DNA of 64,000 bases, taken from assembly GCF_014199395.1 (NCBI RefSeq), contig NZ_JACIJM010000008.1, positions 1 to 64,000 of the forward strand, given 5' to 3'. The stretch is from Yoonia ponticola (GTDB taxonomy: Bacteria; Pseudomonadota; Alphaproteobacteria; Rhodobacterales; Rhodobacteraceae). The notes under the pieces are model-generated. The model made no database searches, was not told the origin of the DNA, and saw only the letters and a program-made list of their open reading frames with translations. The position numbers were made by a program, and so were the translations under genes. Positions 8,471 to 61,697 of the stretch are shown here, piece by piece (within the stretch, counting starts at the first letter, position 1; each line of letters starts with the position of its first letter).

Positions 8471-8559
8471 TGCTCTGTCCCAGCATTGTTTGCCTCGACA
8501 TAATCGTCAGCAGCCTGAACCACAAGTCACGGGAAAATCACTGAAAAGAGGATATTGGA

Positions 8560-8630
8560 GCGGGCGGCGGGAATCGAACCCGCATCTTCAGTTTGGAAAA
8601 CTGAGGTCTTAACCATTACACAACGCCCGC
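8560..8630 (-). tRNA. tRNA-Gly (anticodon TCC)
   Basis: On the minus strand the sequence folds into a standard cloverleaf of 71 bases. The 7-bp acceptor stem begins GCGGGCG, the anticodon loop TTTCCAA carries TCC between TCAGT and ACTGA, and the T-arm contains GGTTCGATTCC. The discriminator base is T, as is usual for this isoacceptor, and the next bases are not CCA. It decodes GGA and GGG. Confidence 0.95.
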
Positions 8631-8740
8631 GCGCTATAGTGGTGGAATAGGCCATGAAACGAATAGCGTCAAGCGCTCACAGTTTTGCCTCATTTGCGCC
8701 CAAATTGGACGACATACCTACTGGGGATCGGGGGATTGAA

Positions 8741-9124
8741 ATGCTCAAAGGGATTCGCGCTATGCCAAGTCTATCAACACTTCTAAAGTCCGCGGCGCTT
8801 GCTAGCGTTACCGCATTTGCGGCGACCTCAGCGCATGCGCAGGATTACACTGTTTATGTCTACGAAAAAGGGTATTTTCCGAACGTTATCTACACTGACG
8901 GGATCACTCGCATCAGATTCGTCAACAAAACAAGATATAGCGTAGGCTTGGACACAGAACAGTCGCGTCAAATTATCGAAAACCGCATCTACTCTGGTAA
9001 TTCCGCCTATGTAGAACTTTCGAAGATTGCAGGACGCACGCTCGCAACGCCATATCTTTATAACGTAGGTCGTTACAATGCTCGCGAGTTGGACTTTGTA
9101 GCAGGCGTCGCACCTGATTCCTAA
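8741..9124 (+). CDS. Small secreted beta-rich protein, cupredoxin-like but without metal ligands
   Basis: A 127-residue protein. The chosen start (ATG at 8741, preceded by GGGGAT) gives a signal peptide ending TSAHAQD; an upstream in-frame ATG at 8654 would add an unlikely extension. The mature chain starts with a beta-rich segment (YTVYVYEKGYFPNVIYTDG, then IRFVNKT) that resembles cupredoxin-like domains. It contains no His, Cys or Met, so a copper site of that type is excluded. I do not recognise a named family. It converges on the SRAP gene with a 4-base overlap. Confidence 0.6.
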   Translation: MLKGIRAMPSLSTLLKSAALASVTAFAATSAHAQDYTVYVYEKGYFPNVIYTDGITRIRFVNKTRYSVGLDTEQSRQIIENRIYSGNSAYVELSKIAGRTLATPYLYNVGRYNARELDFVAGVAPDS

Positions 9125-9783
9125 ACGATCGGATCCAGCAACCCTGCCCCACTGGCTTTGTTACTGTTGACCGCTGTACCGACACGATGAAACGAAAGCG
9201 CGTCTTCGGGCGCGCTTTTCATTAATACAGCTGCGCCCTTTCCAGGTTCACCTAGCCAAAGCGGCCAATCCGGCGCGGTCAAAATAACGGGTATCCGGTG
9301 GTGAATACGCGCCATAGCGAGATTTGCGCCCGTTGTCACAATTGCACAGGTTGTCAGCCGTTCGCCATCACGCTCCCAATCTTGCCAAATGCCAGCCATG
9401 ACGAGCGGCGCGCGATCCGCGCGTTGAATAAACCAAGGCAGCGGTTTGGCGTCACCATCCCGAAACCATTCATAAAACCCCGTGACGGGAATCAAGCACC
9501 GCCGCGCCCGACAAGCGGCGCGAAACGCTGGTTTTTCAGCAAGCGTTTCCGCCCTAGCACTTATCAAAAGCGGCCCGCCGTTCGGCTTTTTGTACCAATC
9601 AGGAATAAAGCCCCATCGCATCGGCCGTAATCGACGCCCTCCGCCGCCTGCAGTCACCACCGAAATTTGAACTGTGGGACAGACGTTGTAATCAGGCACA
9701 GGCGGCAAATCATTCGCAGGCACAGCCTCGAACATCTGCACCATCGCATCATGTGGCAACGTCATCGCTATTCGTCCACACAT
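9121..9783 (-). CDS. SRAP/YedK-type DNA abasic-site crosslinking protein
   Basis: A 220-residue SOS-response-associated peptidase family protein (YedK in E. coli, HMCES in animals). It protects abasic sites in single-stranded DNA by forming a thiazolidine link through its N-terminal Cys. The start MCGRIA places Cys at position 2, as the mechanism requires once Met is removed. TGFYEW provides the conserved Glu and HHRIP the conserved His region. AGGAGG lies close upstream of the ATG. The gene follows the nucleotidase gene on the same strand, across a repeat-bearing gap. Confidence 0.9.
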   Translation of the reverse strand: MCGRIAMTLPHDAMVQMFEAVPANDLPPVPDYNVCPTVQISVVTAGGGGRRLRPMRWGFIPDWYKKPNGGPLLISARAETLAEKPAFRAACRARRCLIPVTGFYEWFRDGDAKPLPWFIQRADRAPLVMAGIWQDWERDGERLTTCAIVTTGANLAMARIHHRIPVILTAPDWPLWLGEPGKGAAVLMKSAPEDALSFHRVGTAVNSNKASGAGLLDPIV

Positions 9784-9801
9784 ATTTATGCGTCCTCCTC
9801 A

Positions 9802-9844
9802 TTCATTTCGCTCACAACAACTCCCCTCGGAGGGTCCACCAAAA
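9802..9844. repeat. Intergenic repeat copy A
   Basis: Plus-strand TTCATTTCGCTCACAACAAC followed by TCCCCTCGGAGG and, after a short gap, ACCAAAA. It closely matches the stretch just after valS (39996-40037) and partly matches the end of ygfZ (45402-45422). In this copy the element sits between the nucleotidase stop and the SRAP start. Confidence 0.6.
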
Positions 9845-9894
9845 GAAAACGCGCCGCAGTTGCCCGCGACGCGCTGTGATTTCCTAAACTCAGC

Positions 9895-11454
9895 TTATTT
9901 TGCTGTGATACGGCCATCCGTGTAAGGCGTATATGCGCCGCCTTCTGCCATGTATTCAGCCATAACTTCCGCAACATCTGGACCGAAATCGTAGGCGTTC
10001 GCGGCGTCTTTGAACATTTCATAACCGTCGCCGCCGTTCCGAACATAGTTGTTCGATACAACGCCGTAGGTCGCAGTCGGATCAATCGGCTCGCCGCCAA
10101 CCATCACATCAGAGACGCGCGATCCAGCTTCGGCCGCCGCATCGAACGCAAAGGACATGCCTGCAACTTGTGGGAAACGACCAGCGCCGTCCTCAACTTG
10201 GCCGACGCCATTTTCAAGCGCCGCAACAATCACGTCACCAGTCACTTGGAACGTGGACAGCGTGTTTTGGAAAGGCAAAACGGTGTAAACTTCACCCATT
10301 GTCACCGGCCCCGCATCAATAGAGGCTCGCACACCACCACCGTTTTGAATAGCGATCTGAATACCTTGGTCTTGGACGCGGTCTAACATCGCATCAGCAA
10401 TCAACGTACCCATCGGACATTCGGCCGCACGGCAAAGATCACGTGAACCAACGATCTCTTCCGCAGTTTCAGCAACAACCTTGGTGCGAATTTCTTCAAG
10501 TGGAACGGCCAGTTCAGCGATACGGGCCAGTACGTCTTCGTTTTCAGCAACTTGACTATCGATCAGAATCGGCTCGCCTGCGGCCTCGGTAATGACCCCC
10601 TCGTCGTCAAAGGTTACATTCAGCTCGCCCAAGAATTTCCCGTAGGCATAGGCCTGAACCACAGCCGTATCGCCAACCATTGTGGGATACGGACCTTCGG
10701 CACTGTCATTTGTATTCGAGAGCAGCGTATTGGTGTGGCCGCCAACGATCACATCAACACCAGTTGTGTTTTCAGCAACGTTGATGTCCGTCGCGTAGCC
10801 AGAGTGGGACAGAACGATAATCTTGTTCACACCTTCGGCTGTGAGTTTATCAACTTCACCCTGCACAGCAGCGATTGGGTCAGAGAAAGTCACGTGGTCG
10901 CCAGGCGACGCCAATTCGGCAGTATCTTCTGGTGTCAGGCCGATCAGGCCGATCTTTTCACCACCACGTTCGATCACAGTGGATTTCGCCAGCTTGTCAG
11001 CAAGCAAAGGCTCTGACGAGACGTCAGCATTTGACATCAGCACAGGAAACTCAACGGCGTCCATAAACCCGGCAAGAACCTCTGGACCGTCATCGAATTC
11101 GTGGTTGCCCACGGTCATCGCATCATACCCAAGCAGGTTCATGAATTCTGCCGTCATGGTCCCTTTATAATACGTATAGAATAACGTACCGTTAAACTGG
11201 TCACCACCATCAACCAAAATTGCGTTGTTCGACCGCGCACGCGCATCGGTCACAGCATTTACAAGGCGCGCCGTACCACCAAAACATTCGCCAGCCGTGT
11301 TATCTTCAGCGCCACATGGACCGTCGTATTTGCTGATCGGCTCATGGCGATCATGATAGTCGTTGGTGTGCAGAATCGTCAGGCTATAGTCAGCTGCGGC
11401 TGCGCCGGCTGTCAGCGCAAACGCGCATGTCGTTGTCAGAATCCGTGAAAGCAT
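9895..11454 (-). CDS. Periplasmic 5'-nucleotidase / 2',3'-cyclic phosphodiesterase family
   Basis: A 519-residue secreted metallophosphoesterase of the UshA/YfkN type, expected to release phosphate and nucleosides from extracellular nucleotides. The start at MLSRIL gives a signal peptide ending GAAAADY and has GGGGGA upstream; an alternative start 57 bases earlier is unlikely. The metallophosphatase domain shows ILHTNDYHDRHEP, DGGDQFNG and GNHEFDDG. The C-terminal substrate-binding domain carries QNGGGVRASIDAG and SNNYVRNGGDGY. It would fit phosphate scavenging in seawater; no Pho box was identified. Confidence 0.9.
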   Translation of the reverse strand: MLSRILTTTCAFALTAGAAAADYSLTILHTNDYHDRHEPISKYDGPCGAEDNTAGECFGGTARLVNAVTDARARSNNAILVDGGDQFNGTLFYTYYKGTMTAEFMNLLGYDAMTVGNHEFDDGPEVLAGFMDAVEFPVLMSNADVSSEPLLADKLAKSTVIERGGEKIGLIGLTPEDTAELASPGDHVTFSDPIAAVQGEVDKLTAEGVNKIIVLSHSGYATDINVAENTTGVDVIVGGHTNTLLSNTNDSAEGPYPTMVGDTAVVQAYAYGKFLGELNVTFDDEGVITEAAGEPILIDSQVAENEDVLARIAELAVPLEEIRTKVVAETAEEIVGSRDLCRAAECPMGTLIADAMLDRVQDQGIQIAIQNGGGVRASIDAGPVTMGEVYTVLPFQNTLSTFQVTGDVIVAALENGVGQVEDGAGRFPQVAGMSFAFDAAAEAGSRVSDVMVGGEPIDPTATYGVVSNNYVRNGGDGYEMFKDAANAYDFGPDVAEVMAEYMAEGGAYTPYTDGRITAK

Positions 11455-50629: not shown

Positions 50630-51283
50630 TCAAAGAGTGAATGCAGCTTCTTTTTTAAACCCAGCCAGCGTCGGCGCGGTCGCATTAAACGCAAAACGCC
50701 AGCTCATTTCGCCATTCAGCTTATGACCTATACGCACGACGCCCGAAGTTCCGTCGACGAAAATGCAACCGATACGGCCGCCTTCACGCAGCTGATCTAA
50801 GATCGCGGCAGGCAGTTCTTCAACGGCACCTTCGGTGATGATAATGTCGTAAGGGCCGGATTTGCCAGCGCCCTCAGTCAACGCGCCAGCCAAAACAGCT
50901 GCGTTATCAACACCGTTTTCGGACAGGTTTGTCTGGGCTTCGTTCGCCAGATCTTCGTCGTCTTCGACGCCAGCAACAAAATCAGCCAAGCGTGCCAGAA
51001 CGGCGGTCGAATAGCCCAGACCACAACCCAGATCCAAAACACTGTGGCTCGGTTGGATATCCAGAACATCGATCATCTTGGCGAAAGTGCGCGGATCAAG
51101 AACAACACGGTCAGCCCCAAGCGTCACATGTTCGCCCATATAAGCCGCCTCGCGCATGTTATCCGGCACGTACATCTCGCGCGGCACAGACAGCATGGCC
51201 TCAATAATGGGGAATTTCGTTACGTCTGACGGGCGGACTTGGGTGTCGACCATCATCGTGCGGCGGGTGCTATAGTCTACCAC
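50630..51283 (-). CDS. Protein-L-isoaspartate O-methyltransferase family protein
   Basis: A 217-residue SAM-dependent methyltransferase. Motif I is VLDLGCGLGYSTAVLARL, preceded by YVPDNMREAAYMGEHV, where canonical Pcm has a different substrate loop. This alphaproteobacterial subgroup precedes tolC almost invariably, as I recall, but its substrate has not, to my knowledge, been shown to be isoaspartate. A GTG start at 51283 (VVDYSTRRTMMVDTQVRP) fits the family; the TTG 78 bases upstream does not. It starts the pcm-tolC-PopZ block. Confidence 0.82.
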   Translation of the reverse strand: MVDYSTRRTMMVDTQVRPSDVTKFPIIEAMLSVPREMYVPDNMREAAYMGEHVTLGADRVVLDPRTFAKMIDVLDIQPSHSVLDLGCGLGYSTAVLARLADFVAGVEDDEDLANEAQTNLSENGVDNAAVLAGALTEGAGKSGPYDIIITEGAVEELPAAILDQLREGGRIGCIFVDGTSGVVRIGHKLNGEMSWRFAFNATAPTLAGFKKEAAFTL

Positions 51284-51374
51284 GGGAACACTCTTCTTTT
51301 GAAATATGTCACTTTTGGTGATGCCACACCGCAGCACTGGCGGCAATGTCTGATCAAGCAAACATAGGCGTCAA

Positions 51375-52799
51375 TCATCCACCCAGTTGCCGCAAGAGCG
51401 CAATTCTATCCACCTTTGAAGCATGTCGTTTGTCCATCGGGATAGCAGGGACGTGGCGTACCTGTGTGATTCCCAGCGCTGCGGCGTTGGTTTTCCATTG
51501 ATTTTGCATCGCGATATCCCCCGCAATCACGAGTAACGGATCATTTTTCAAGCTCACAAATGCGCAAGACGTCACGCCGGACCACTGACGCACGGCGACC
51601 TCGATTGAGAACGGATAAGTACGCTGCCCGTTAAGGTTTACCTCAGTCCCGACGCGCCCCAGCAACCAGAGGCGGTTTTCCTCGTCTAATCGTCCAGCGT
51701 CGCCGGTCCGGTGCCAGATAATGCCATCATGGTTAACCTTATTGTCGGCATCATGTGTCGGGTCGAGATAGCCGCGATTGACATGATCGCCCGTGACTTG
51801 GATTTCGTGGTCCACAATACACACACGGGTTGTTGGCGTCGCCCGCCCCACCAATAGCCCCTGCCCGTCCCGCATCGCATCAAAATCCGATTGTGAAATG
51901 TCGTCGGCGTCTAGATGCGCGATAGGCTCTGCCTCGGTCGATCCATAAACACAGGTCACATTTAAGGTCGGATGCGTGTCTTGCATTGCGACCAACATAT
52001 CGGGGAAAATCGGCCCGCCGCCGGTGAAAACCTGTTTGAGGCTGGTTAACGCTTCTGTCTGAGCGAGCGTTTGACACAACGCAGGCGGCAGCAACGCGCG
52101 AGTAACACCCTGATCGGTGATCCATTTGGCAAGTTGTGCTGCGGGCAATTTCGCGATGCGCGACATTTTCCAGTTCGGAAGCACTGACGTGCGCCCGCTC
52201 GCCAAATTGATCAAAGCGAACACGGGGAATGCGACAAGGTCACGTTCAGGTTGCGCACTGTCCAGCAATGGCGCGACCGCGTTGTGCTGCGCCATGAGAA
52301 ACGCGTGACTACGCGGGATCGCTTTGGGCGCACCTGTCGTGCCAGAGGTGAATGAAATCAATGCGATATCATCCAGATCAGTTCGGCGAAGGTCACCGAT
52401 TTGCTTACTCTCAACCATCTTTAAACGCGGTTTTAGCCACAACTCGGGAACGACCAGCTTCAATGCCCGAAACGCACCAGTTGCACAAAACGAACTTACG
52501 TTGGTGGTTTTCACCGCATGACGTAATCCAGCCAAACCCAATGCAGGCTCCGGCAAAACGACGGTTGCGCCAAGCGACCAAAGCGCCGCCAGACTGGCGT
52601 AAAGATCGCTGCTGATCCCCATCGCCAGCAACACACGGTCACCGCGCGCCACCCCCGCTCGCGACCATGTCGCCGCAAGACCATTCGCCCGCGCCTGCAG
52701 TGTGGCAAAGCTGATCGTTTCCCCGTTCGGATTCACAATCGCTGCTTGATCAGGAAACCGAGCAACAGTCTGCGCAAACTGACTGAGAAGATCAGCCAT
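51375..52799 (-). CDS. AMP-forming acid ligase, last gene of the HMGR-UbiA operon
   Basis: A 474-residue member of the ANL superfamily. SFTSGTTGAPKAIPRSH (about 152-168), VYGSTEAEPIAHL and HRTGDAGRLDEENRLWLLGR are present. The C-terminal domain is short and ends KRHASKVDRIALL, with a Lys near the expected position. The YGSTEAEPIA motif resembles the OleC/beta-lactone-synthetase side of the superfamily more than ordinary fatty acyl-CoA ligases. The start overlaps the GNAT gene stop by 8 bases. It probably activates a carboxyl group of the pathway intermediate or of a fatty acid donor; this is inference. Confidence 0.8.
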   Translation of the reverse strand: MADLLSQFAQTVARFPDQAAIVNPNGETISFATLQARANGLAATWSRAGVARGDRVLLAMGISSDLYASLAALWSLGATVVLPEPALGLAGLRHAVKTTNVSSFCATGAFRALKLVVPELWLKPRLKMVESKQIGDLRRTDLDDIALISFTSGTTGAPKAIPRSHAFLMAQHNAVAPLLDSAQPERDLVAFPVFALINLASGRTSVLPNWKMSRIAKLPAAQLAKWITDQGVTRALLPPALCQTLAQTEALTSLKQVFTGGGPIFPDMLVAMQDTHPTLNVTCVYGSTEAEPIAHLDADDISQSDFDAMRDGQGLLVGRATPTTRVCIVDHEIQVTGDHVNRGYLDPTHDADNKVNHDGIIWHRTGDAGRLDEENRLWLLGRVGTEVNLNGQRTYPFSIEVAVRQWSGVTSCAFVSLKNDPLLVIAGDIAMQNQWKTNAAALGITQVRHVPAIPMDKRHASKVDRIALLRQLGG

Positions 52800-53640
52800 C
52801 CAATTTCAATCCAAACAACGCATATCTGCGGAAAATCTCGGCACCCTCAGCCGCGCTTCGAAGTGCAGAAAGGTTGTCATCATGGATCAAGGCGTGAATC
52901 GCGGTCTCGTAACCCAATTCGCGCGCGGTCGTGTGAAATGCGTAGGCTAACAATTGGCCCGCGCCTTTTTGCAAGCTCGCGTAGGTCTTGAGGATCGCGG
53001 TCTTGGACGTAGGGCCATCGTTGTAGTTCGGGATCGCAAACAAGAAACCCGCCAATTTGCCGTCAGTCGTTCGCGCAAAGAAGACGAGTTCCTTTTTCAA
53101 TAGCGGCACGATGGGCATATACATCTTTAAAAAGTCATTAAAAGAAATGGGTTTGAAGAACGCATTCTTTTGAAAAGCGGCGACCGACAGGTCATAGACC
53201 TGCTTGAACAACCCCTCCGGGTTAGCGCCATCCCACGTCTCAATTCTTAAATTCGGGCTGTCTGGCGGCACAAATTGTCCGGTTTCGGTCAACGGAACCC
53301 GCGCCGAAAAGTATCGGCTGATCGGCGTAAACCCTGCATGTCTAAAAACGTCGGTTGCAACGTTTGTGTTGCTCGGCTCAAGCATGAATGCGGGGCTGCC
53401 GTCGGTCTCGGTCACAAAGCGGTAGCCATGCCATGTGTCGCCATCCATTGGGCCGATGATCCCTTTGATGCCTTTAGTTTTCACAAAATCAATGGCTTGC
53501 CCTATAACAGCGGTTCCAGCGTCAAAGCTTTTGCACGAAAACTGACCAAGAGCTGCTGCCGTGTCTTGGGACCAATTTGGCGCATCGAGATAGACCGTGA
53601 CTTTTGCGTCATCCAATTTGAAATGCGTCTGGGTCATCAC
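52792..53640 (-). CDS. GNAT-fold acyltransferase-like protein
   Basis: A 282-residue protein. Text such as GPMDGDTWHGYRFVTE, a central LRIETWDG and the acetyl-CoA-site-like QKGAGQLLAYAFHTTAREL suggest a GNAT-fold acyltransferase of the long, two-lobed type. It is longer than ordinary N-acetyltransferases. Related folds perform N-acylation in amino-lipid synthesis (OlsB is one), which would suit its place next to a BtaA-like gene. It overlaps both neighbours (ATGA upstream; 8 bases downstream). The substrate is unknown. Confidence 0.6.
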   Translation of the reverse strand: MMTQTHFKLDDAKVTVYLDAPNWSQDTAAALGQFSCKSFDAGTAVIGQAIDFVKTKGIKGIIGPMDGDTWHGYRFVTETDGSPAFMLEPSNTNVATDVFRHAGFTPISRYFSARVPLTETGQFVPPDSPNLRIETWDGANPEGLFKQVYDLSVAAFQKNAFFKPISFNDFLKMYMPIVPLLKKELVFFARTTDGKLAGFLFAIPNYNDGPTSKTAILKTYASLQKGAGQLLAYAFHTTARELGYETAIHALIHDDNLSALRSAAEGAEIFRRYALFGLKLDG

Positions 53641-54962
53641 AACAACCCTTCAAAGTTTGTTGAAATACAATAGCTTGCTAGCGGGGTAAGGAGTGACATC
53701 GCGATCAATTTTGTTACGCGAAAACGCCTGAATAGATGTGGGGCTGTCAGGGTCGTCATCGAAATTAGGGACAAGTTAATGAAAGCGACACTCCACATCG
53801 GGCCGCTCCAATTTCGCACACCATCATTCAAGTTCAAACTGATATATCGTAGTAAACATAAGCCGAGAATGACGCCGATAGCCCCCAAAATACGCGCGGG
53901 CAGCGGTTTGACCCCGAGCGCAATTCCGCAAAACCCCATCGACAGACCCATCGCCGTTATCCCGTAAAACGAGACTGCATTCCAACCCGTCGCATTACCA
54001 AGTGTGAGCCAGAACAAGCTTAACAAAACGACGCCCGCGACGATATCTAGGTCAGGAAATGCGCTATCGCCGGGGTTGATTGTCCGGCTCCAAGCGTGCG
54101 CGAGAAATACGGATATGGGCAACATCGCGTTATGGAATGATGTTACCGCTAAAAGCAAAAAGACGGTGGTGACATAAACCCGACCCGCGTGATTTGTTAA
54201 CCCGATAATCGGTGAAATTGTCCGGAACCCGATCAACGTAGCCGCAAACAATGCTGCAAGTGCGACCAAGTCTTGAACCTCGCGACCACCGTGACTGGCA
54301 AGAAATACCAAAATTCCCAATGGTAAGAACAAGTTATCAAAGCCGCGCCAACTGACGGCCTCGACCAAAGTGCCAAACCCCGCGACCATCAACGACAACA
54401 GAATTATGTTTACTGGATCGAAAGTCGTCATCACCATTAAGCAAAGCATCGACAGTACGAGTGTCACCGCGAAGAAAACGACGCACCCTTCGAGGCTTTT
54501 CTGCCCGTCTTCAACCTTGAAAAACCTGCTGCCATAAGTTGTGCCAGCCAGTGCCGCCGCCGCATCTGCCAAGGTCAAAACCGCAATCGGAAGAACGTAA
54601 AGATATAGCTGATCGTCCGCCAAAAACAGACAAAGTCCAACTGCAATCGCCAAGAACATGTCGCCGTAAGATTGTCGGTCGACTCCATGTAATGTCGATC
54701 CAATTCCCGTTGATGACACCTTGGGCAAGCGTAAGACCAGCATGACCAACAAGGTTAACCCGACGAGCATGTAGACTGGCCAGCGATCTGGGAAAAGCCA
54801 TGGTAACGTCAGTGCGTATAATCCGGTGCCTATGTGGACGAGTTTGCGCTGCAGTTCTGCGCTGATACTGTGTTTGCGGGCAACGCGTTGCACGACTGTC
54901 ATTAACCCTAACAGGACAACTACCGACCCAAAGGCCAAGAAAATTTGCAGCGCAATCGTCAC
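53637..54962 (-). CDS. Phytol/dolichol-kinase-like membrane protein with extra C-terminal membrane half
   Basis: A 441-residue protein with about 12 membrane helices. The first 215 residues match the CTP-dependent lipid-alcohol kinase group (phytol kinase VTE5, dolichol kinase Sec59): LQRKLVHIGTGLY, LADAAAALAGTTYGSRFF, GQKSLEGCVVFF and SWRGFDNLFLPL. Residues about 225-441 form a further set of membrane helices that I cannot assign. The GTG start overlaps the DUF3419 stop (GTGA). It probably phosphorylates a polyprenol or other lipid alcohol with CTP. Confidence 0.7.
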   Translation of the reverse strand: MTIALQIFLAFGSVVVLLGLMTVVQRVARKHSISAELQRKLVHIGTGLYALTLPWLFPDRWPVYMLVGLTLLVMLVLRLPKVSSTGIGSTLHGVDRQSYGDMFLAIAVGLCLFLADDQLYLYVLPIAVLTLADAAAALAGTTYGSRFFKVEDGQKSLEGCVVFFAVTLVLSMLCLMVMTTFDPVNIILLSLMVAGFGTLVEAVSWRGFDNLFLPLGILVFLASHGGREVQDLVALAALFAATLIGFRTISPIIGLTNHAGRVYVTTVFLLLAVTSFHNAMLPISVFLAHAWSRTINPGDSAFPDLDIVAGVVLLSLFWLTLGNATGWNAVSFYGITAMGLSMGFCGIALGVKPLPARILGAIGVILGLCLLRYISLNLNDGVRNWSGPMWSVAFINLSLISMTTLTAPHLFRRFRVTKLIAMSLLTPLASYCISTNFEGLL

Positions 54963-56062
54963 GAAATAACTTCTTCCACGACAAAATCAGAATAGAAAAA
55001 CGCTTTATCTTTCGATTTTTGAGCGTTCTCGACATCTGTTAATGTTTGGACACGATGCTGCAGGTGTTGCGGCACGCGGCGCGGCGCCATCATATTCCAA
55101 TAAACCAAACGGGCATTTGGCGCCGAGGCTTCAAGAATGCTTTCATAGACCTGCGCGAACACGTCCGGTGACATGTATTCAAAAATGTCCGAAAGATTAA
55201 AACCATCCGCCTTTTCGCCAGTCGAGACAAACGCCTCTAGCGAACCGGGCCGAATATCCAGCCGATCAAGCCGCGATTTGATCGTTTCAAAGTATTCGGC
55301 GCGCCATGTCATAGGCAAGGCATCACCATGTGTCCCTTTAAGAATCCAATGTAAATAAGGGTTATCAGCAGGATCACAGGCCACCGCGGCATGATGAATA
55401 CGACGTGCGACATGCTGCGCCGGGCTTCCGTCAACATGGTCGAAAAACGCCTTGTCCCGTCCCATTCGTCCCATCACGAAACGTGAAAAAAACACATTAA
55501 GCAGAATTTTCCAACGCCAAGTATTGAACCGCGTGTCGAGAAACACCTGTCGTTCTGGCTGGGAACGCGAGATAAACGTATCGTCTAGAGTGCGGCGGGA
55601 GTGAACAAAGGGCAGCAGCTTTGTGCGAAAAATGCGAAAGTAGCGTTCAAATTTACCGACGCCGCCCGCGCCATAAAGGTTAACCTCTTCGTCCAAATCG
55701 CGCCAAAACTGCTGTAATTCAGGCGTTAGGTCGACAATGGCTTTGGTTAACAATTCGGATCGCTGTGTGCTTGGTCGTGCGCCCATCAATTCCAGAAACT
55801 CAGGATGCGTGAGGTGACGAAACGCCCCAATTCGCAAATGCAAACAGGCAATTTGTGCTGGTGATAAATCAACGACGACAACTTTGGCAGGATCGAGCGT
55901 CAACATGGCTAACGCGTTGTCTCCAGCCGAACAGATCGACACCAAAGTACCGCCTGCACAGGGGCCAAGCGCCGTGGTTAACACGTCAGCATCTTCCCAT
56001 AATTGCGCGTATCGGATGTGGTCGAATGCCGCTTTGCCAGCAATTTCAGAGCTATTCGTCAT
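54959..56062 (-). CDS. DUF3419 protein, BtaA-like 3-amino-3-carboxypropyl transferase
   Basis: A 367-residue SAM-dependent enzyme of the DUF3419 family. BtaA, the best-known member, transfers the 3-amino-3-carboxypropyl group of SAM to diacylglycerol to start betaine lipid (DGTS) synthesis. The N-terminal SAM site reads VSICSAGDNALAMLTL and VVVDLSPAQIACLHLR; the family hallmark FNLSDIFEYMS is near residue 300. No BtaB N-methyltransferase gene follows, so a DGTS end product is not indicated. The start at 56062 overlaps the upstream gene by 11 bases. Confidence 0.8.
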   Translation of the reverse strand: MTNSSEIAGKAAFDHIRYAQLWEDADVLTTALGPCAGGTLVSICSAGDNALAMLTLDPAKVVVVDLSPAQIACLHLRIGAFRHLTHPEFLELMGARPSTQRSELLTKAIVDLTPELQQFWRDLDEEVNLYGAGGVGKFERYFRIFRTKLLPFVHSRRTLDDTFISRSQPERQVFLDTRFNTWRWKILLNVFFSRFVMGRMGRDKAFFDHVDGSPAQHVARRIHHAAVACDPADNPYLHWILKGTHGDALPMTWRAEYFETIKSRLDRLDIRPGSLEAFVSTGEKADGFNLSDIFEYMSPDVFAQVYESILEASAPNARLVYWNMMAPRRVPQHLQHRVQTLTDVENAQKSKDKAFFYSDFVVEEVIS

Positions 56063-58472
56063 GCTTTTCAACCTTACCCGTCGCGCCATTAACCGTGATC
56101 AGTTGACCATCAGCAATCCAGTCGGTCGCATCCTTTAGACCAACGACGCACGGAATTCCAAGCTCACGCGCAACAATCGCAGAATGAGATAGCAACGATC
56201 CCCGCTCGACGACGATAGCAGACGCCTGCGAGAACACCGCGATCCAACCAGGATCAGTGTGGCGCGCAATTAGAATTTCGCCGGGCGCCAGACTTTGGCT
56301 GCGCGGATCACGGATCACCCGCGCTGTGGCGGTGACGGTGCCAGCCGCACAACCCGTTCCACTTTGTGACATTTCCGCATTGGTTTCAGTGACTTCTCCG
56401 ATGTGCCAATGAGGCGCAATCGCGGGGCCGCGCAGCGCAATACGTTCAGGCGGATCAGGACGAAGCACCGCGGCATCGTCTTCAGTTTTGCGCATGGCGA
56501 TAATGGCTTTCAGATCATGAGAAACGCCCGAACCCTCGACCGCGCCGAGAATTTCATCTTTTGTCAGCAGGAATATATCGCGCTGGTTTGCGATCAATCC
56601 GCGCGTGGAAAATTCGCGCCCCAAAGCCAGAAAAACCCGCCGCGCGTAACCGAAAATTCGTGTTCGCTCAAAACGCAAGTTCTCGCGATCGCGGACCCGC
56701 GCCTTTGTCCAACCAATTACCCATTTAGCAACCGCACGTTTCACCGGCCTACCTGCAAATAACGTGTCCCAGTCGGGTGTCTTCGCAGATCCATATGGCC
56801 TTTCAGGCTGCGCTGCCTGTGCCACAATCGCGATCAAAAGCGATGTCGGATCATCGGTTAACGGGATGCTTTCCAGCTTCAACTCTTCGGTGCATCTATC
56901 ACCAAATTTCGCCAGATAGGCGTCGATTTCTAGAGCTATCTCAGGGTGACGCATCAGTTGATCAAGATCGGTCACCCCAAGTTTTCGCGCCATCGCGCCC
57001 ATTTTTGCAATGCGTTGCGCGGGCTCTGCCGAAACGATGTCACCCTGCCCAATCATCACATCGTTGTGCAGCAGCAACCCCGGATCACCCAACCAATTCT
57101 GCATCAAATTCCGAGACGCGCCAAACGCGATCATGCAGAAAAAGTCGTTAACTAATGGCGCATCCCATTGATCTAAAAGTGTACTTTCAATCTGCCTATA
57201 TTGTTTAGCAAGCGCCGTCGGTGTGGCAGTGTTGACGTCAAGATCAGTATCCAAGGTTGCATTTAACCGGTCGTAAAAGCGACGCCGTGTCGAGGGCAAA
57301 CGCGCTGCCTGCCACAAAAGACCACCAGCGACCCGTGCGAGTTTCAAATATTCGGTAACGCGCGCCACGCCTGTTGCAGGCGGCGGTCCGATCGCGTCTG
57401 TGATCTCTGTCGGCAATGGCTCTGACACGCCCATCATGGTTTCCATGTAGGCCCGATTTAACGAAAAACCTGGTAACAACGCCAACGCGCGATACCAATT
57501 CGCAAGGTTATAGTAGACGCGCCCATCGACGCGCCCCAGCATGTTGGCGAACACGGCTGTGTTGGCGTGGATTGTGGTTTCGGGTACGCCCAAAAGGTCC
57601 ACGAATGCGCGGTAAACGCGGTCGTAAACATGGACCGCGAACGAATAGGTTAACGGACTGACCATGCCCGGATAGCTTTCGACGATATTTGAATTGTCAA
57701 AGATCGTCAGCGCCGTGTCGGGCATGGGTTTCGGCAACAATGCGGTCGTGATCGGCCGAGATTGTAGGATGTGCAAACCCGCCTCATCTATCGCCCACTC
57801 GATGTCCTGCGGGTGTTCAAACGCAACTTCAGCACGACGGGCAAGTGTGGCAATCGCTTGTGCTTGGACCTCGGTCAAGACCTTTGATGTTGGGCGGTTC
57901 ACAACGTTATTACCCCCATCAATTAACCAATCTTCGCCATCAACTTCGCCCGCAACAAGAGCCTCGCCCAGCCCTGCAACCGCAGAGATCACGACACGTT
58001 CCCGCAACCCACTTACAGGATCGGCAGAGAATGCGACCCCTGCCGCAACCGCGTCAATCATCCGCTGAACGATGATCGCTGGCGCCTCAGGTGCTTCGCC
58101 TGATGTGGCCGCGAGATACGTTGTGATTGTGTTGGAGAAACCCGATTTCCAAACCTGTTGCGCGGCGACGATCACGTCTGCTGCGGCCACATTTAGCACA
58201 GTGTCGAATTGCCCCGCGTGGCTATGCGCATTGCCGTCTTCAGCCCTGCCGGAACTACGTACAGCGAAAGGACCAGCACCAAGCGCTGCCAAAGCCGCAC
58301 TGAGCTCCGCCTCTAATTCCGGAACTGGCGTCCCGTCTTGGAACGCATTCGAGGTAATCACGAAAAACGCTGGCGGCTCAAACCCGCCGCGAGATAGCGC
58401 GTTAAGTGACGCCGCTTTTCCGCCCACCATATCGGCATCAACACATTGATCTTGTGAAATAATATAACTCAT
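56052..58472 (-). CDS. Rifampin-phosphotransferase-like dikinase (not PEP synthase)
   Basis: An 806-residue protein with an N-terminal PEP/pyruvate-type ATP-grasp domain (GGKAASLNAL; FAVRSSGRAEDG; GVAFSADPVSG; DIEWAIDE...LHILQSRP; residues 1 to about 255). A central helical region of about 450 residues follows. A C-terminal swivelling His domain has the catalytic His near 763 in LLSHSAIVAREL. The protein ends right after this domain. The PEP-binding barrel of PpsA/PPDK is missing, and the order ATP-middle-His is that of rifampin phosphotransferase. It should transfer the ATP beta-phosphate to an alcohol. The start at 58472 forms ATGA with the UbiA stop. Confidence 0.8.
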   Translation of the reverse strand: MSYIISQDQCVDADMVGGKAASLNALSRGGFEPPAFFVITSNAFQDGTPVPELEAELSAALAALGAGPFAVRSSGRAEDGNAHSHAGQFDTVLNVAAADVIVAAQQVWKSGFSNTITTYLAATSGEAPEAPAIIVQRMIDAVAAGVAFSADPVSGLRERVVISAVAGLGEALVAGEVDGEDWLIDGGNNVVNRPTSKVLTEVQAQAIATLARRAEVAFEHPQDIEWAIDEAGLHILQSRPITTALLPKPMPDTALTIFDNSNIVESYPGMVSPLTYSFAVHVYDRVYRAFVDLLGVPETTIHANTAVFANMLGRVDGRVYYNLANWYRALALLPGFSLNRAYMETMMGVSEPLPTEITDAIGPPPATGVARVTEYLKLARVAGGLLWQAARLPSTRRRFYDRLNATLDTDLDVNTATPTALAKQYRQIESTLLDQWDAPLVNDFFCMIAFGASRNLMQNWLGDPGLLLHNDVMIGQGDIVSAEPAQRIAKMGAMARKLGVTDLDQLMRHPEIALEIDAYLAKFGDRCTEELKLESIPLTDDPTSLLIAIVAQAAQPERPYGSAKTPDWDTLFAGRPVKRAVAKWVIGWTKARVRDRENLRFERTRIFGYARRVFLALGREFSTRGLIANQRDIFLLTKDEILGAVEGSGVSHDLKAIIAMRKTEDDAAVLRPDPPERIALRGPAIAPHWHIGEVTETNAEMSQSGTGCAAGTVTATARVIRDPRSQSLAPGEILIARHTDPGWIAVFSQASAIVVERGSLLSHSAIVARELGIPCVVGLKDATDWIADGQLITVNGATGKVEKHDE

Positions 58473-59383
58473 AAAGCCCTCAAAACAACAGGCACAAAAC
58501 CTGCGATAGCGTAACATACAAATACCCAAAGTCCGGCAATCGTATCCATGTCGGCTTGTGCCTTTGGTGTAGGGTGGCTGCGGTAATGCAGCACACGTAG
58601 GATGCAGACCGCTCCTGCGATCAACCCAAGCGGTCCTACAATCCAAAGCGTCCGCGTCACAGCGCCGATCCCACACAATAGGCCGAATGACACCACTAAA
58701 CACAGCATCCAAATCAGGCTGGCTTTGCGTACCCCCCAAAGCCCCGAATAGGTTTCGACGCCCGTGATTTCATTCTCTGGTGCCCATAACTTTCGGCCGA
58801 TTTCCAATACGCACCCGTTGACGAATGATAGCGCAATGAACATCCAGAGATGTGGCGATGCGCCACCGCCTGGCACCCATTCGATCCCCGTCAGCAGCAA
58901 GTCAATCAATGGCATGATCGCCATGTGGCTTGCTAAGTACAGCACCGGACGGGCCTTAAGGAGTGCGGGTACACCGAACTCAAACGTCATCGCCGTTAAC
59001 CATAGCCAGACAAGAAAAAGCAGCCACAAGACGGGTGCATGCCATGCCCAGACGGCGATGATCGCAGGCGGTATCGTCAGTAGTCCAAAACGCACGACGC
59101 CCTGCAGCGACACCAGCCCACGCGGAATTGGTCGTTCCGGTCGAAAATTGAGATCGTCGTCGTAGTCTTTAATTTCGTCACACACCCGCACCTGGAAAAA
59201 CAATGCCATGGCCACGATAAATCCGGTGATAAACGCATCGATACTGGGAATATCTCGGCCGCTTAATGTGGCAGACGCGCAAATGCTGGCCGCCGAAAAG
59301 ACAGCCAATAGCGGGGCGGTCTTTTTCAGTGGAAAACGTTCAGATTGATACGTCCAGATTCGAGATGCGCGTGATACAGTCAT
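58469..59383 (-). CDS. UbiA-family prenyltransferase
   Basis: A 304-residue integral membrane protein with about 8-9 helices. The first Asp-rich prenyl-diphosphate motif is DEIKDYDDDLNFRPERPIP near residue 70. The second, normally DxxxD, appears altered as EIGRKLWAPENE near 190. It transfers a prenyl group from its diphosphate to an acceptor such as an aromatic ring, glycerol phosphate or another lipid. It is linked by ATGA overlaps to HMG-CoA reductase upstream and the dikinase downstream. No quinone or chlorophyll gene is adjacent, so the acceptor is unknown. Confidence 0.82.
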   Translation of the reverse strand: MTVSRASRIWTYQSERFPLKKTAPLLAVFSAASICASATLSGRDIPSIDAFITGFIVAMALFFQVRVCDEIKDYDDDLNFRPERPIPRGLVSLQGVVRFGLLTIPPAIIAVWAWHAPVLWLLFLVWLWLTAMTFEFGVPALLKARPVLYLASHMAIMPLIDLLLTGIEWVPGGGASPHLWMFIALSFVNGCVLEIGRKLWAPENEITGVETYSGLWGVRKASLIWMLCLVVSFGLLCGIGAVTRTLWIVGPLGLIAGAVCILRVLHYRSHPTPKAQADMDTIAGLWVFVCYAIAGFVPVVLRAL

Positions 59384-60657
59384 CGATGACGCGCCAATTT
59401 TTCGTGCGCCCGCGTGAAATCACCTGCTGCGATGGCCGCAACAATCGAGATTTCGCCACACAGACACGTCGCTGCGACGACTTCGGCAAGTGCCGCGGCC
59501 TTTCCTTCGCCCTTCAGGCCCAAAATATTCAGGCCAGCCGATTGGCTAGGTAAACCGGTACCGCCACCAACGGAGCCGACCAATATGTTCGGCATCGTGA
59601 CGCTACAAAACAAATCTTCGCCTCGCGCTTCCATCCGCGTGATGCCCATCGCGCTTTCCGCGACGCAAGCCGCATCCTGTCCGGTCGCGATGTAAACAGC
59701 GGCAAGCCCGTTGGCGAAATGGGCCTGCGCGCCCAATTGACCCGATAAATGCGACCCAAGGTTGGCGACTTGGCCGTAAGCCAACATGTCAGAAACCGTC
59801 GTGCCCAGCGTGCGTTCGACCACAGCGGCGGGTAATGTGACGGACGCGCTAACCTTACGTCCGCGCCCTGTGACAAGCCCGAGGAACGACGCCTTTTTAT
59901 CGCCGGAAAAGTTGCCTTCGATGTACCAATTTTGGATCGGGACCGTGCATTCCCCGGCTATTTCACGGCACAGCGCATCTGTGGCAATCGTGACCATATT
60001 CTGGCCAGCTGCGTCACCTGTCGTATAGCGGCAGACTAAAAATACCACATTGTTGTCGATCATAGGCTCAACAGAAATCAACTTACCATATCCGGTAGTC
60101 GCCTCTGCTGCTTTTTCCAAACGATCAACATGCGACACGATCCACTCCACAAACCGTCCCGCGTCCAGCAAGGATTCGAGGACAAACGCAGGGGTGCGAA
60201 TAACGCCTTCGTAAAGCATCGCCGTGCTGATACCGCCTGCTTTGCTCGCCGCATAAGCGCCCCGCGCATAGGACGCGACGAGGGCCGCTTCGGTCGTCGC
60301 CATTGGCACGTGATAGTCGCCATGGGCGTGTAATCCGTTGATCCGCAATGGACCGATGATCCCAACCGGAACTTTAACCGTCCCGATGAAGTTTTCGATG
60401 TTGCCATTGAACACCTCTGGATTGGTGACGTCATCGGTCAACGCCACGCGATCTTCTTCAGAGGCCGTGCTGGCGGACATTAACCGCGCCCAATATTTTG
60501 CGATCGAACCCGCGCTGGCTTTGCGAACCGGTCGTAGCGTCGTGAAATCGCTATCGTTCGGCAGCATCCGGTCCTGCAGCGGTTCCAATGCGAACTTGTC
60601 ACGGATCGACTGCAGCATTGTTCTGACGTGTTTTGGAATTGTCACCGCAGACTCCAT
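59380..60657 (-). CDS. HMG-CoA reductase, class I
   Basis: A 425-residue soluble NADPH-dependent HMG-CoA reductase that makes mevalonate. Catalytic residues of class I enzymes are all visible: Glu in MATTEAALVAS, Lys in SGDKKASF, Asp in GQDAACVAES, and the C-terminal His in TRAHEKLARH. There is no membrane anchor. No HMG-CoA synthase, mevalonate kinase or decarboxylase gene is in the window, and this bacterial group normally makes isoprenoids by the MEP pathway. It is the first gene of the seven-gene operon; the ribosome-binding site at 60657 is weak. Confidence 0.9.
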   Translation of the reverse strand: MESAVTIPKHVRTMLQSIRDKFALEPLQDRMLPNDSDFTTLRPVRKASAGSIAKYWARLMSASTASEEDRVALTDDVTNPEVFNGNIENFIGTVKVPVGIIGPLRINGLHAHGDYHVPMATTEAALVASYARGAYAASKAGGISTAMLYEGVIRTPAFVLESLLDAGRFVEWIVSHVDRLEKAAEATTGYGKLISVEPMIDNNVVFLVCRYTTGDAAGQNMVTIATDALCREIAGECTVPIQNWYIEGNFSGDKKASFLGLVTGRGRKVSASVTLPAAVVERTLGTTVSDMLAYGQVANLGSHLSGQLGAQAHFANGLAAVYIATGQDAACVAESAMGITRMEARGEDLFCSVTMPNILVGSVGGGTGLPSQSAGLNILGLKGEGKAAALAEVVAATCLCGEISIVAAIAAGDFTRAHEKLARHR

Positions 60658-60908
60658 ATTTTCGAGACAGTTTAGTGACTTAGCGCCTGATGTCTAAGCA
60701 TAGTTTCATTATCGACCATCATGGCGGCGCGGCTGTGTTTCTGTGCACCCAATGTGAACCTGAGGCCCAGTTGTATGTTCATGCCCGCCATTTTCTTGAC
60801 AATGCGCTGGCCCCGCTTCAAGTGGTTATGGACATCCGCGACAACAGTGACGGCAGACAGGCCATTGAACGGTCTCTGCCAAACGATCGCACTGACAGGG
60901 AGGGCATG
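60658..60908. other. Divergent promoter region between HMG-CoA reductase and trpA genes
   Basis: A 251-base gap that must hold the promoters of the HMGR operon and of trpA. A plus-strand open frame continuing into trpA from 60690 has no similarity I recognise and is probably not translated. I found no palindrome or riboswitch-like fold that I could support. Confidence 0.4.
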
Positions 60909-61697
60909 ATGACCCGTATTGATGACAAATTCGCGACGCTGCAAGCCGCTGGAAAAAAAGCCTTTGTGACTTACATCATGGCAGGCGACACCGATTATGA
61001 CACCTCGCTTGAGGTCATGCGTGGCCTGCCCGCCGCTGGCGTGGACGTGATCGAGTTGGGCTTGCCCTTTACCGATCCCGTCGCCGACGGCCAAACGATC
61101 CAACTCGCTGGGCAACGCGCGCTGGACGCAGGTCAAACGCTCAAGAAAACGCTCGCAATGGCGAAGACCTTCCGCGAAGATGATACCACGACGCCCATCG
61201 TCATCATGGGCTATTACAACCCGATCTACTCAATGGGTGTTGATAAATTCCTAACCGCCGCTGTCGATGCAGGCGTTGACGGGTTGATCATCGTTGATTT
61301 ACCGCCCGAGGAGGACGCAGAATTGTGCCTTCCGGCCAAAGAAGTCGGTATTAACTTTATCCGTCTCGCGACCCCAACGACGGATGCAAAACGCCTGCCA
61401 AAGGTGATCGAAAACACCTCTGGTTTCATCTATTACGTGTCGATGAACGGCATCACAGGGACCGCGACGGCACAGGTCAACGCAGTCGCGCCCGAGGTCA
61501 CCCGCATCAAGCAAGCCACTGATTTACCTGTCGTCATCGGCTTTGGCGTCAAGACACCAGAGGCGGCCAAGACATTTGCGGATCTGGGTGACGGCGTCGT
61601 GGTTGGCTCTGCTATCGTTGAACGGATTGGGCGTGGCGATGCGCCTGCTGACGTTCTCGCTTTCGTGAAAACCCTCGCTGACGCGGCCCATAGCTAA
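60909..61697 (+). CDS. Tryptophan synthase alpha subunit
   Basis: A 262-residue TIM-barrel subunit that cleaves indole-glycerol phosphate to indole and glyceraldehyde-3-phosphate. The catalytic Glu and Asp are in [14 protein letters not shown]; phosphate-binding loops appear in SMNGITGTA and [18 protein letters not shown] lies five bases before the ATG at 60909, which favours it over the ATG at 60906. It is 12 bases ahead of trpB; this alpha-before-beta order reverses the usual trpB-trpA arrangement. Confidence 0.95.

Follow-up and report, generated by a model that had tools for sequence, protein, structure and literature searches.

The window analysed here, a stretch of 64,000 nucleotides from Yoonia ponticola (positions 1 to 64,000 of contig NZ_JACIJM010000008.1, assembly GCF_014199395.1), carries an operon of seven minus-strand genes at 60657-51375, in which an HMG-CoA reductase (HMGR) homologue is combined with a UbiA-family transferase, a dikinase, a DUF3419 protein, a kinase-like membrane protein (KIN), a probable GNAT-fold acyltransferase and an ANL acid-activating ligase. 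We propose, with a probability of about 0.5, that the seven proteins form a self-contained route to an amphiphilic lipid not yet described, and that in this route HMGR would not make mevalonate and the enzymes would work in the order given below; every reaction, their order and the product are what we infer. Observed directly were the genes and the families to which they belong, the fact that they are inherited together, the altered substrate residues of HMGR, and the detection of Dxr but not of MVD in hosts of the same family (Rhodobacteraceae). HMGR is among the best-studied enzymes in biology and, to our knowledge, there is no earlier case of the HMGR family reducing another substrate. If the proposal is true, an HMGR branch with changed substrate contacts, acting in a pathway without mevalonate, would be the first such case. 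In addition, certain cultivated strains with species names would be expected to contain a class of membrane lipid not yet seen, and the operon can be tested directly in them.

Operon structure and inheritance

The first gene encodes an HMGR-family reductase of 425 amino acids (59380..60657; PF00368 HMG-CoA_red, 369 bits). It is followed by genes for a UbiA-family membrane prenyl/alkyl transferase (304 amino acids, 58469..59383; PF01040, 43 bits), a dikinase of rifampin phosphotransferase (RPH) layout with an ATP-grasp domain and a phosphohistidine swivel domain (806 amino acids, 56052..58472; PF01326 PPDK_N, 154 bits, and PF00391 PEP-utilizers, 91 bits), and a DUF3419 (BtaA-like) homologue of S-adenosylmethionine (SAM)-dependent transferases (367 amino acids, 54959..56062; PF11899, 185 bits). 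The remaining genes encode KIN, a membrane protein with prenol-kinase-like motifs (RKxxH) in its N-terminal half and a C-terminal extension (441 amino acids, 53637..54962; motif alignment, no Pfam match), the probable GNAT-fold acyltransferase (282 amino acids, 52792..53640; PF00583, 15.1 bits against a cut-off of 20.7), and the ANL ligase, nearest to the PRK09274/OleC-like branch (474 amino acids, 51375..52799; PF00501 AMP-binding, 133 bits). Five of the seven proteins (HMGR, UbiA, dikinase, DUF3419 and ANL) exceeded their Pfam cut-offs. The family calls of an earlier, sequence-only reading of this DNA thus held firmly for these five and weakly for GNAT, and its call of a CTP kinase was borne out by motif only.

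Every junction overlaps, by 4 bases at HMGR/UbiA, UbiA/dikinase, DUF3419/KIN and KIN/GNAT, by 11 at dikinase/DUF3419 and by 8 at GNAT/ANL, and ATGA or GTGA is present at four of the six junctions, all as the sequence-only reading had described. The second codon of GNAT coincides with the aligned first Met of its relatives, and with that start the KIN/GNAT overlap is 1 base. A scan for promoters and terminators returned sites no commoner than in shuffled sequence (5 against a mean of 6.8, and 12 against a mean of 13.8). Since the junctions overlap, the seven genes are predicted to lie on a single transcript. The set had been called one co-translated unit; conservation upheld it as one co-inherited biosynthetic unit, and the common transcript is the part deduced from the overlaps.

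HMGR at least 66% identical to that of the window was found in 16 of 295 genomes of the family, its own genome included, and no HMGR match was found in the other searched genome of its genus. Twenty stretches were taken around HMGRs of the family, 15 from the relatives at or above 66% and five around more distant HMGRs. All seven genes were present in the same order in 14 of the 15 relatives. In the fifteenth, a contig of 5.5 kb carries the first four. The five stretches around more distant HMGRs lacked all six partner genes. In one otherwise complete operon (L046, G013:C1:2551296-2552557), HMGR is split over two overlapping frames, by a frameshift or an assembly error.

When named genomes were scanned with the dikinase, 43 loci were recovered. 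Among the alpha- and gammaproteobacterial loci (L052-L079), 25 of 28 contained the full set in the same order, and the remaining three were cut by contig ends. They include Loktanella, Yoonia, Thalassococcus, Paracoccus, Thioclava, Lentibacter, Roseicyclus, Roseinatronobacter, Pseudorhodobacter, Marinicaulis and a Coxiellaceae bacterium, in which KIN is in pieces. Cultivated carriers are Loktanella salsilacus DSM 16199, Thalassococcus halodurans DSM 26915, Yoonia maritima DSM 101533 and Roseicyclus mahoneyensis DSM 16097. Two pairs of loci (L034/L054 and L032/L058) sit on contigs of equal length and are probably the same records, and locus counts are not counts of independent genomes.

Outside this group, a Chitinophagaceae locus (L082) contained seven of the seven genes at 27-44% identity. 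Six, four and three of the genes were found in L084, L080 and L087, respectively, each stretch stopping at a contig end; L081, L083, L085 and L086 are variant loci, and L088-L094 gave a dikinase match only. In the phylum of L082, the dikinase was detected at E<=1e-60 in 9 of 296 genomes. Seven of the eight new genomes carried the full set, in four cases ordered GNAT-ANL-HMGR-UbiA-dikinase-DUF3419-KIN. The sequence-only reading had stated that it would be refuted if no other genome kept the set together, and the set is clearly conserved in the Chitinophagaceae locus and in these seven of eight. Because the seven genes are kept together in genomes so distant, chance adjacency was rejected.

The genes flanking the operon in the window, named by eye, were found next to the cluster only in a 95%-identical relative (L052) among the 43 loci checked. 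A 137-kb plasmid of Roseinatronobacter sp. S2 (NZ_CP121116.1; L108) carries six of the seven genes, annotated in operon order as UbiA, dikinase, DUF3419, two hypothetical proteins and an AMP-binding protein; the stretch stops at the end of the record, before the expected place of HMGR. Since the set is conserved while its flanks differ, and since one locus lies on a plasmid, the block behaves as a unit of inheritance.

Directly downstream of the operon, the gene at 50630-51361 resembles by eye a protein-isoaspartate methyltransferase. On the other side, a divergent open reading frame at 60690-61697, by eye a tryptophan synthase alpha chain, has an extension of ~70 codons before its likely start, facing the operon 5' end (60690-60905).

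The HMGR homologue and host isoprenoid genes

The best PDB relatives of the operon HMGR are class I enzymes. The window protein retains the catalytic residues Glu123, Lys254, Asp328 and His418 (human Glu559, Lys691, Asp767 and His866), which are conserved in all cluster rows of both residue alignments, apart from L080, where a contig end cuts the protein. Arg590 and Asn755 (human numbering) are also conserved in the cluster HMGRs. Two substrate contacts are altered: the position of human Ser684 is Glu247 in the window protein, and that of Lys735 is Ala298. PMC9500038 describes a salt bridge of Lys735 with the HMG carboxylate and a polar contact of Ser684 to HMG. A survey of the cis loop in 55 loci, of which six had no HMGR in the stretch and three were non-cluster loci with Ser, showed Glu at the Ser684 position in 46 of the 46 cluster loci with a readable loop. 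Two further alignments showed Glu or Asp at this position in 15/15 and 18/18 cluster rows, and in the same rows Lys735 was replaced by Ala, Ser, Gly or Ile; the three sets share genomes, and the columns depend on alignment with solved class I enzymes and within the family. Four non-operon HMGRs of the family were of two kinds. Two class I HMGRs of the family from outside the cluster (L048 and L049) retain both Ser and Lys. Another family HMGR (L047, G005:C7) is class I-like and has Ser at 684, but it lacks Lys735 and stands without the six partner genes; it is possibly a third kind of HMGR.

In a tree of HMGRs, 23 class I-like rows were split from 12 rows with 100/100 support. The 12 rows include the second HMGR copies of MVD-positive genomes, and the split in the tree is what suggests that they are class II-like. 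The tree did not settle whether the 20 cluster HMGRs are a single clade relative to three class I rows from outside the cluster: 2 changes were needed, a single clade appeared in 6% of bootstrap trees, and long branches were flagged.

We searched the host genomes for Dxr of the methylerythritol phosphate (MEP) pathway and for HMG-CoA synthase (HMGS) and mevalonate-diphosphate decarboxylase (MVD) of the mevalonate pathway. Dxr was found in all 11 family genomes tested, and neither HMGS nor MVD was found in any of these 11. Overall, Dxr was detected in 16 and HMGS in 1 of the 21 genomes tested. At E<=1e-3, 13 of the 29 genomes searched had an MVD match; 10 of these were over the cut-off, and none of the 13 is one of the 11 family genomes. 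Twelve genomes with a cluster HMGR were searched for both MVD and all HMGRs. A second HMGR match was present in six of the seven MVD-positive ones (G844, G750, G1258, G1246, G1240 and G297; the G1258 copy is partial), and in none of the five without MVD (G964, G702, G296, G304 and G299; a 22-bit MVD match in G299 was counted as none). In G1246, G1240 and G297, a further HMGR copy lies within ~3 kb of MVD. HMG-CoA lyase was found over the cut-off in 12 of 18 hosts; in G006 and G248, which are 99-100% complete, it was not found over the cut-off (best 46 bits), nor was HMGS found there.

The operon HMGR is probably not a mevalonate enzyme. Because it lacks Lys735, is acidic at the Ser684 position and resides in MEP-pathway hosts without detected MVD, it more likely acts as a thioester-to-alcohol reductase of another substrate. 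For the same reasons, the isoprenoid-containing lipid envisaged by the sequence-only reading is unlikely to draw its isoprenoid from this HMGR.

Partner enzymes and variant clusters

A profile of the UbiA proteins gave as its best PDB match the DGGGP synthase 6m31 (E 2.8e-7), followed by a chlorophyll synthase (0.009). R66, D69, E70, K72, D73, D77, E194, R197 and K198 are invariant in 18 rows, as is the first Asp-rich motif, RxxDExKDxxxD (18/18), and hydrophobic segments were detected with a hydropathy script. The dikinase begins with an ATP-grasp domain and ends with the His swivel domain (PF00391 at 729-799 of 806), in which His763 is presumed to be catalytic. Its best PDB matches are 5fbs, 5hv2 and 5hv1, deposited as phosphoenolpyruvate (PEP) synthase, and 5fbs was aligned at both ends. 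In PMC12167813, 5FBS and 5HV1 are named as RPH, and phosphorylation of phenolic substrates is described for related dikinases. The layout is that of RPH-type small-molecule phosphotransferases, and phosphotransfer to a hydroxyl group is predicted.

In KIN, R39, K40 and H43 of the RKxxH motif are invariant in 26/26 alignment rows, and a simple hydropathy script showed nine hydrophobic segments. The N-terminal half was detected in 41 loci and the C-terminal half, of ~205 residues, in 32. None of the 26 KIN members matched PF01148 at E<=1, and no support was found for a duplication within the protein. The other motifs presumably resemble those of VTE5/Sec59. By its motif, KIN is a candidate CTP-dependent prenol-type kinase. 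A charged clamp with RKxxH spacing was proposed in PMC10849223 from a model of a malaria prenol kinase.

No useful match came from PDB searches with KIN, DUF3419 or GNAT. G47 and D65 of DUF3419 were kept in 14/14 rows, two distant non-operon rows included, and are read as residues of the SAM site. Among 21 genomes searched, only G063, a genome of the family, had two DUF3419 matches over the cut-off; its second, stronger copy (L096, G063:C34:168300-169415; 357 bits) lies ~37 kb from the operon copy and is perhaps a true BtaA. On a plasmid of Deefgea piscis (NZ_CP054144.1; L109, 5273-7502), DUF3419 adjoins an iron-containing redox enzyme and a SAM decarboxylase (speD), which suggests a different use of the protein there. 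The GNAT profile PF00583 matched 10 of 25 members at E<=1, the best at 1.3e-5. The ANL ligase scored 267.5 bits with NF006754, below the cut-off of 478, and fell short of the NCBIfam equivalog for the OleC beta-lactone synthetase (140.8 bits against 900). Its H459, S461 and K462 were kept in 10/10 rows.

The dikinase profile at E<=1e-60 also matched 76 of 235 genomes in the group of G298 (locus L081) and 21 of 58 in the group of G303 (locus L086), many of them weakly. These groups are taken as two further phyla because no sample of the own phylum or of the L082 phylum was among their listed rows. Of 37 stretches taken from them, 36 entered the survey. They show the same families recombined, with the addition of MMPL proteins, a DAGK lipid kinase, NAD_binding_4 proteins of fatty-acyl-reductase type (FAR) and phosphatidylserine decarboxylase (PSD).

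The survey of variants examined 87 loci, with L148 left out, and kept the 76 with a dikinase of at least 600 bits; L088-L094, L192-L194 and L211 fell below this score. UbiA was present in 67 of the 76 loci, ANL in 62, DUF3419 in 60, GNAT in 48, HMGR in 44, KIN in 38, MMPL in 15, FAR in 5, DAGK in 4 and PSD in 2. Presence means anywhere in the stretch and, with many stretches cut by contig ends, absences are uncertain; ANL is overcounted by at least two, the matches in L065 and L075 being unrelated proteins at 24-25%. A single query sequence was used for FAR and another for DAGK (phmmer, E 1e-8). No locus contained both HMGR and FAR, and none contained both KIN and DAGK. FAR was found in 5 of the 32 HMGR-less loci and was confirmed with Pfam in L128 and L201. 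Both replacements occur in L128 (5738-14635), which encodes an NAD_binding_4 reductase, DAGK, UbiA, dikinase, a GNAT-like protein, PSD and DUF3419. The pattern fits a reductase swapped for a reductase and a lipid kinase for a lipid kinase.

In all three of the long HMGR reading frames scanned (L199, L205 and L208), HMGR is fused to an APH/EcKL kinase, as would be expected if the alcohol product of HMGR is phosphorylated. Other loci carry additional genes: a CDP-alcohol phosphotransferase (CDP-OH_P_transf) and a CTP_transf_1 protein in L084, an SRPBCC-like protein, below the cut-off, in L082, MMPL proteins in L083 and L085, an ABC ATPase in L086, and ABC/FtsX genes in some loci. L086 also contains an ANL ligase and UbiA fused in one open reading frame of 775 amino acids (7588-9912). 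Its metagenome-assembled genome is labelled 'Betaproteobacteria', yet its phylum group comprises only 58 genomes, and the label may be wrong.

Proposed pathway, rival explanations and known systems

In the pathway that we propose, the ANL ligase would activate a carboxylic acid to a CoA or AMP derivative, and the HMGR homologue would carry out a four-electron reduction of a thioester, giving a primary alcohol. KIN, using CTP, and the RPH-type dikinase, using ATP through a phosphohistidine, would phosphorylate this alcohol or its acceptor, and UbiA would join the phosphate-activated prenyl or alkyl chain to an alcohol acceptor in the membrane. DUF3419 would then transfer the 3-amino-3-carboxypropyl group of SAM, giving an ether-linked homoserine as BtaA does, and GNAT would acylate the amine; alternatively, ANL may serve the GNAT step. 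Export by MMPL or ABC systems may follow in some variants. We consider it possible, though with somewhat less than even odds, that this is an ancient modular pathway common to Pseudomonadota and Bacteroidota, with variants in the two further phylum-level groups. Its product would belong to an undescribed class of amino-acid-headed, N-acylated isoprenoid or alkyl ether lipids, and its HMGR subfamily (acidic at 684, without Lys735) would have departed from the mevalonate pathway and turned into an acyl-thioester-to-alcohol reductase, interchangeable with FAR-type enzymes and in some cases joined in one protein with an alcohol kinase of its own.

The earlier observation was thus confirmed and extended, and its interpretation is partly supported. 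Gene content favours the lipid-type pathway that it suggested, with an amino-acid-type head-group step and possible N-acylation. It had named no described product, and we likewise found no pathway matching the gene set in limited searches of the open-access literature (subscription papers and preprints were outside their scope). The gene set as a pathway, as distinct from its enzyme families, is therefore provisionally regarded as undescribed.

Several findings weigh against the proposal. Many variant clusters are without HMGR, KIN or GNAT, so these steps are not required for every product. Twenty-seven of the 32 HMGR-less loci are also without FAR, four of the five FAR loci come from one group, and the pattern was not corrected for relatedness. 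The operon DUF3419 is 22% identical to the second copy, L096; this divergence, together with the SAM decarboxylase neighbour in Deefgea piscis, means that the transferred group could differ. The kinase role of KIN comes from its motif, and the RKxxH clamp itself was derived from a modelled structure; as a CdsA homologue, KIN was not significant with hhalign (probability 0.4%), although a D/K/EG signature was in register. The HMGS search was insensitive and missed HMGS in five of the six genomes with MVD over the cut-off, and G301 has MVD and the cluster HMGR only. Finally, the full seven-gene set is rare and patchy. The GNAT profile, run over 398 genomes of the own phylum with at most six first-look candidates scored per listed genome, found the genome of the window and, apart from it, a single unrelated GNAT that lacks the cluster.

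Four other explanations were weighed. The product could be an archaeal-type isoprenoid glycerol ether lipid, made by a DGGGP-synthase-like UbiA, processed further in CdsA/CDP-alcohol steps and headed by the DUF3419 group. The best match of the UbiA profile, the two CDP-alcohol-type proteins of L084 and the prenol-kinase RKxxH motif of KIN are consistent with this, but HMGR, the dikinase and ANL are left unexplained, and no gene of GGGP-synthase type was noticed among the annotated neighbours (no genome-wide search was made); we regard it as unlikely. Mevalonate could instead be a building block, made by HMGR from leucine-derived HMG-CoA, activated by ANL and transferred as mevalonyl to an amine by GNAT. 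Mevalonyl activation and transfer are known from SidI and SidF in fungal fusarinine siderophores. The operon HMGR does keep its catalytic residues and Arg590, the 12 hosts with HMG-CoA lyase may contain HMG-CoA, and GNAT and ANL are neighbours in Rhodobacteraceae-type loci. The changes at Ser684 and Lys735 argue against this route, as do the two hosts (G006 and G248) without HMG-CoA lyase over the cut-off or detected HMGS, the HMGS search being unreliable, and the 10 of 32 HMGR-less loci that have ANL without GNAT, and we judge it quite improbable.

Supply of isoprenoid, with HMGR in a mevalonate route that feeds isopentenyl diphosphate to UbiA, would suit a class I-like HMGR beside a prenyltransferase-family gene, and in G301, which has MVD, no HMGR other than the cluster copy was found. 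It was set aside on gene content, since Dxr was present and MVD was not found in 11/11 family genomes and six of the seven MVD-positive cluster-HMGR genomes have a second HMGR match; even with the caveat on the HMGS profile, it is very unlikely. The hosts may yet use an atypical mevalonate route whose MVD is not recognisable. HMGR as a self-resistance copy against a statin-like operon product has a precedent in resistance-gene-guided mining for HMGR inhibitors in fungal clusters, as described in PMC10734572. It was set aside as scarcely credible because no mevalonate pathway, and hence no evident target, was found in the 11 family hosts; the three HMGRs fused to a kinase also speak against it.

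Comparison with known systems places the operon near several of them. With the class I HMGR of the mevalonate pathway, the operon HMGR shares its family, the catalytic Glu, Lys, Asp and His, Arg590 and Asn755, but it differs at Ser684 (Glu/Asp) and Lys735 (replaced), and its family hosts tested are those in which MVD was not found. The archaeal DGGGP synthase is the best PDB match of the UbiA profile, but a distant one, and the gene company differs. RPH and the phenolic kinases HpeHI, CreHI and PpsAB are small-molecule dikinases that have the ATP-grasp and swivel His domains in common with the operon dikinase; its middle region is little matched, and the relation is one of sequence only. KIN resembles the prenol kinases VTE5, FolK and PolK in its RKxxH spacing and as a hydrophobic membrane protein, but differs from them by the lack of a Pfam match and by its C-terminal half of ~205 residues. 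A GNAT-like acyltransferase beside an ANL ligase may parallel the amide-lipid modules of bacterial ceramide synthase and OlsB, a likeness on which no paper was found in the open-access literature searched. With the betaine lipid pathway (BtaA/BtaB), the operon has the DUF3419 family in common and possibly an ether-linked aminocarboxypropyl group; the seven genes do not include the N-methyltransferase BtaB and instead bring six other enzymes to the side of DUF3419.

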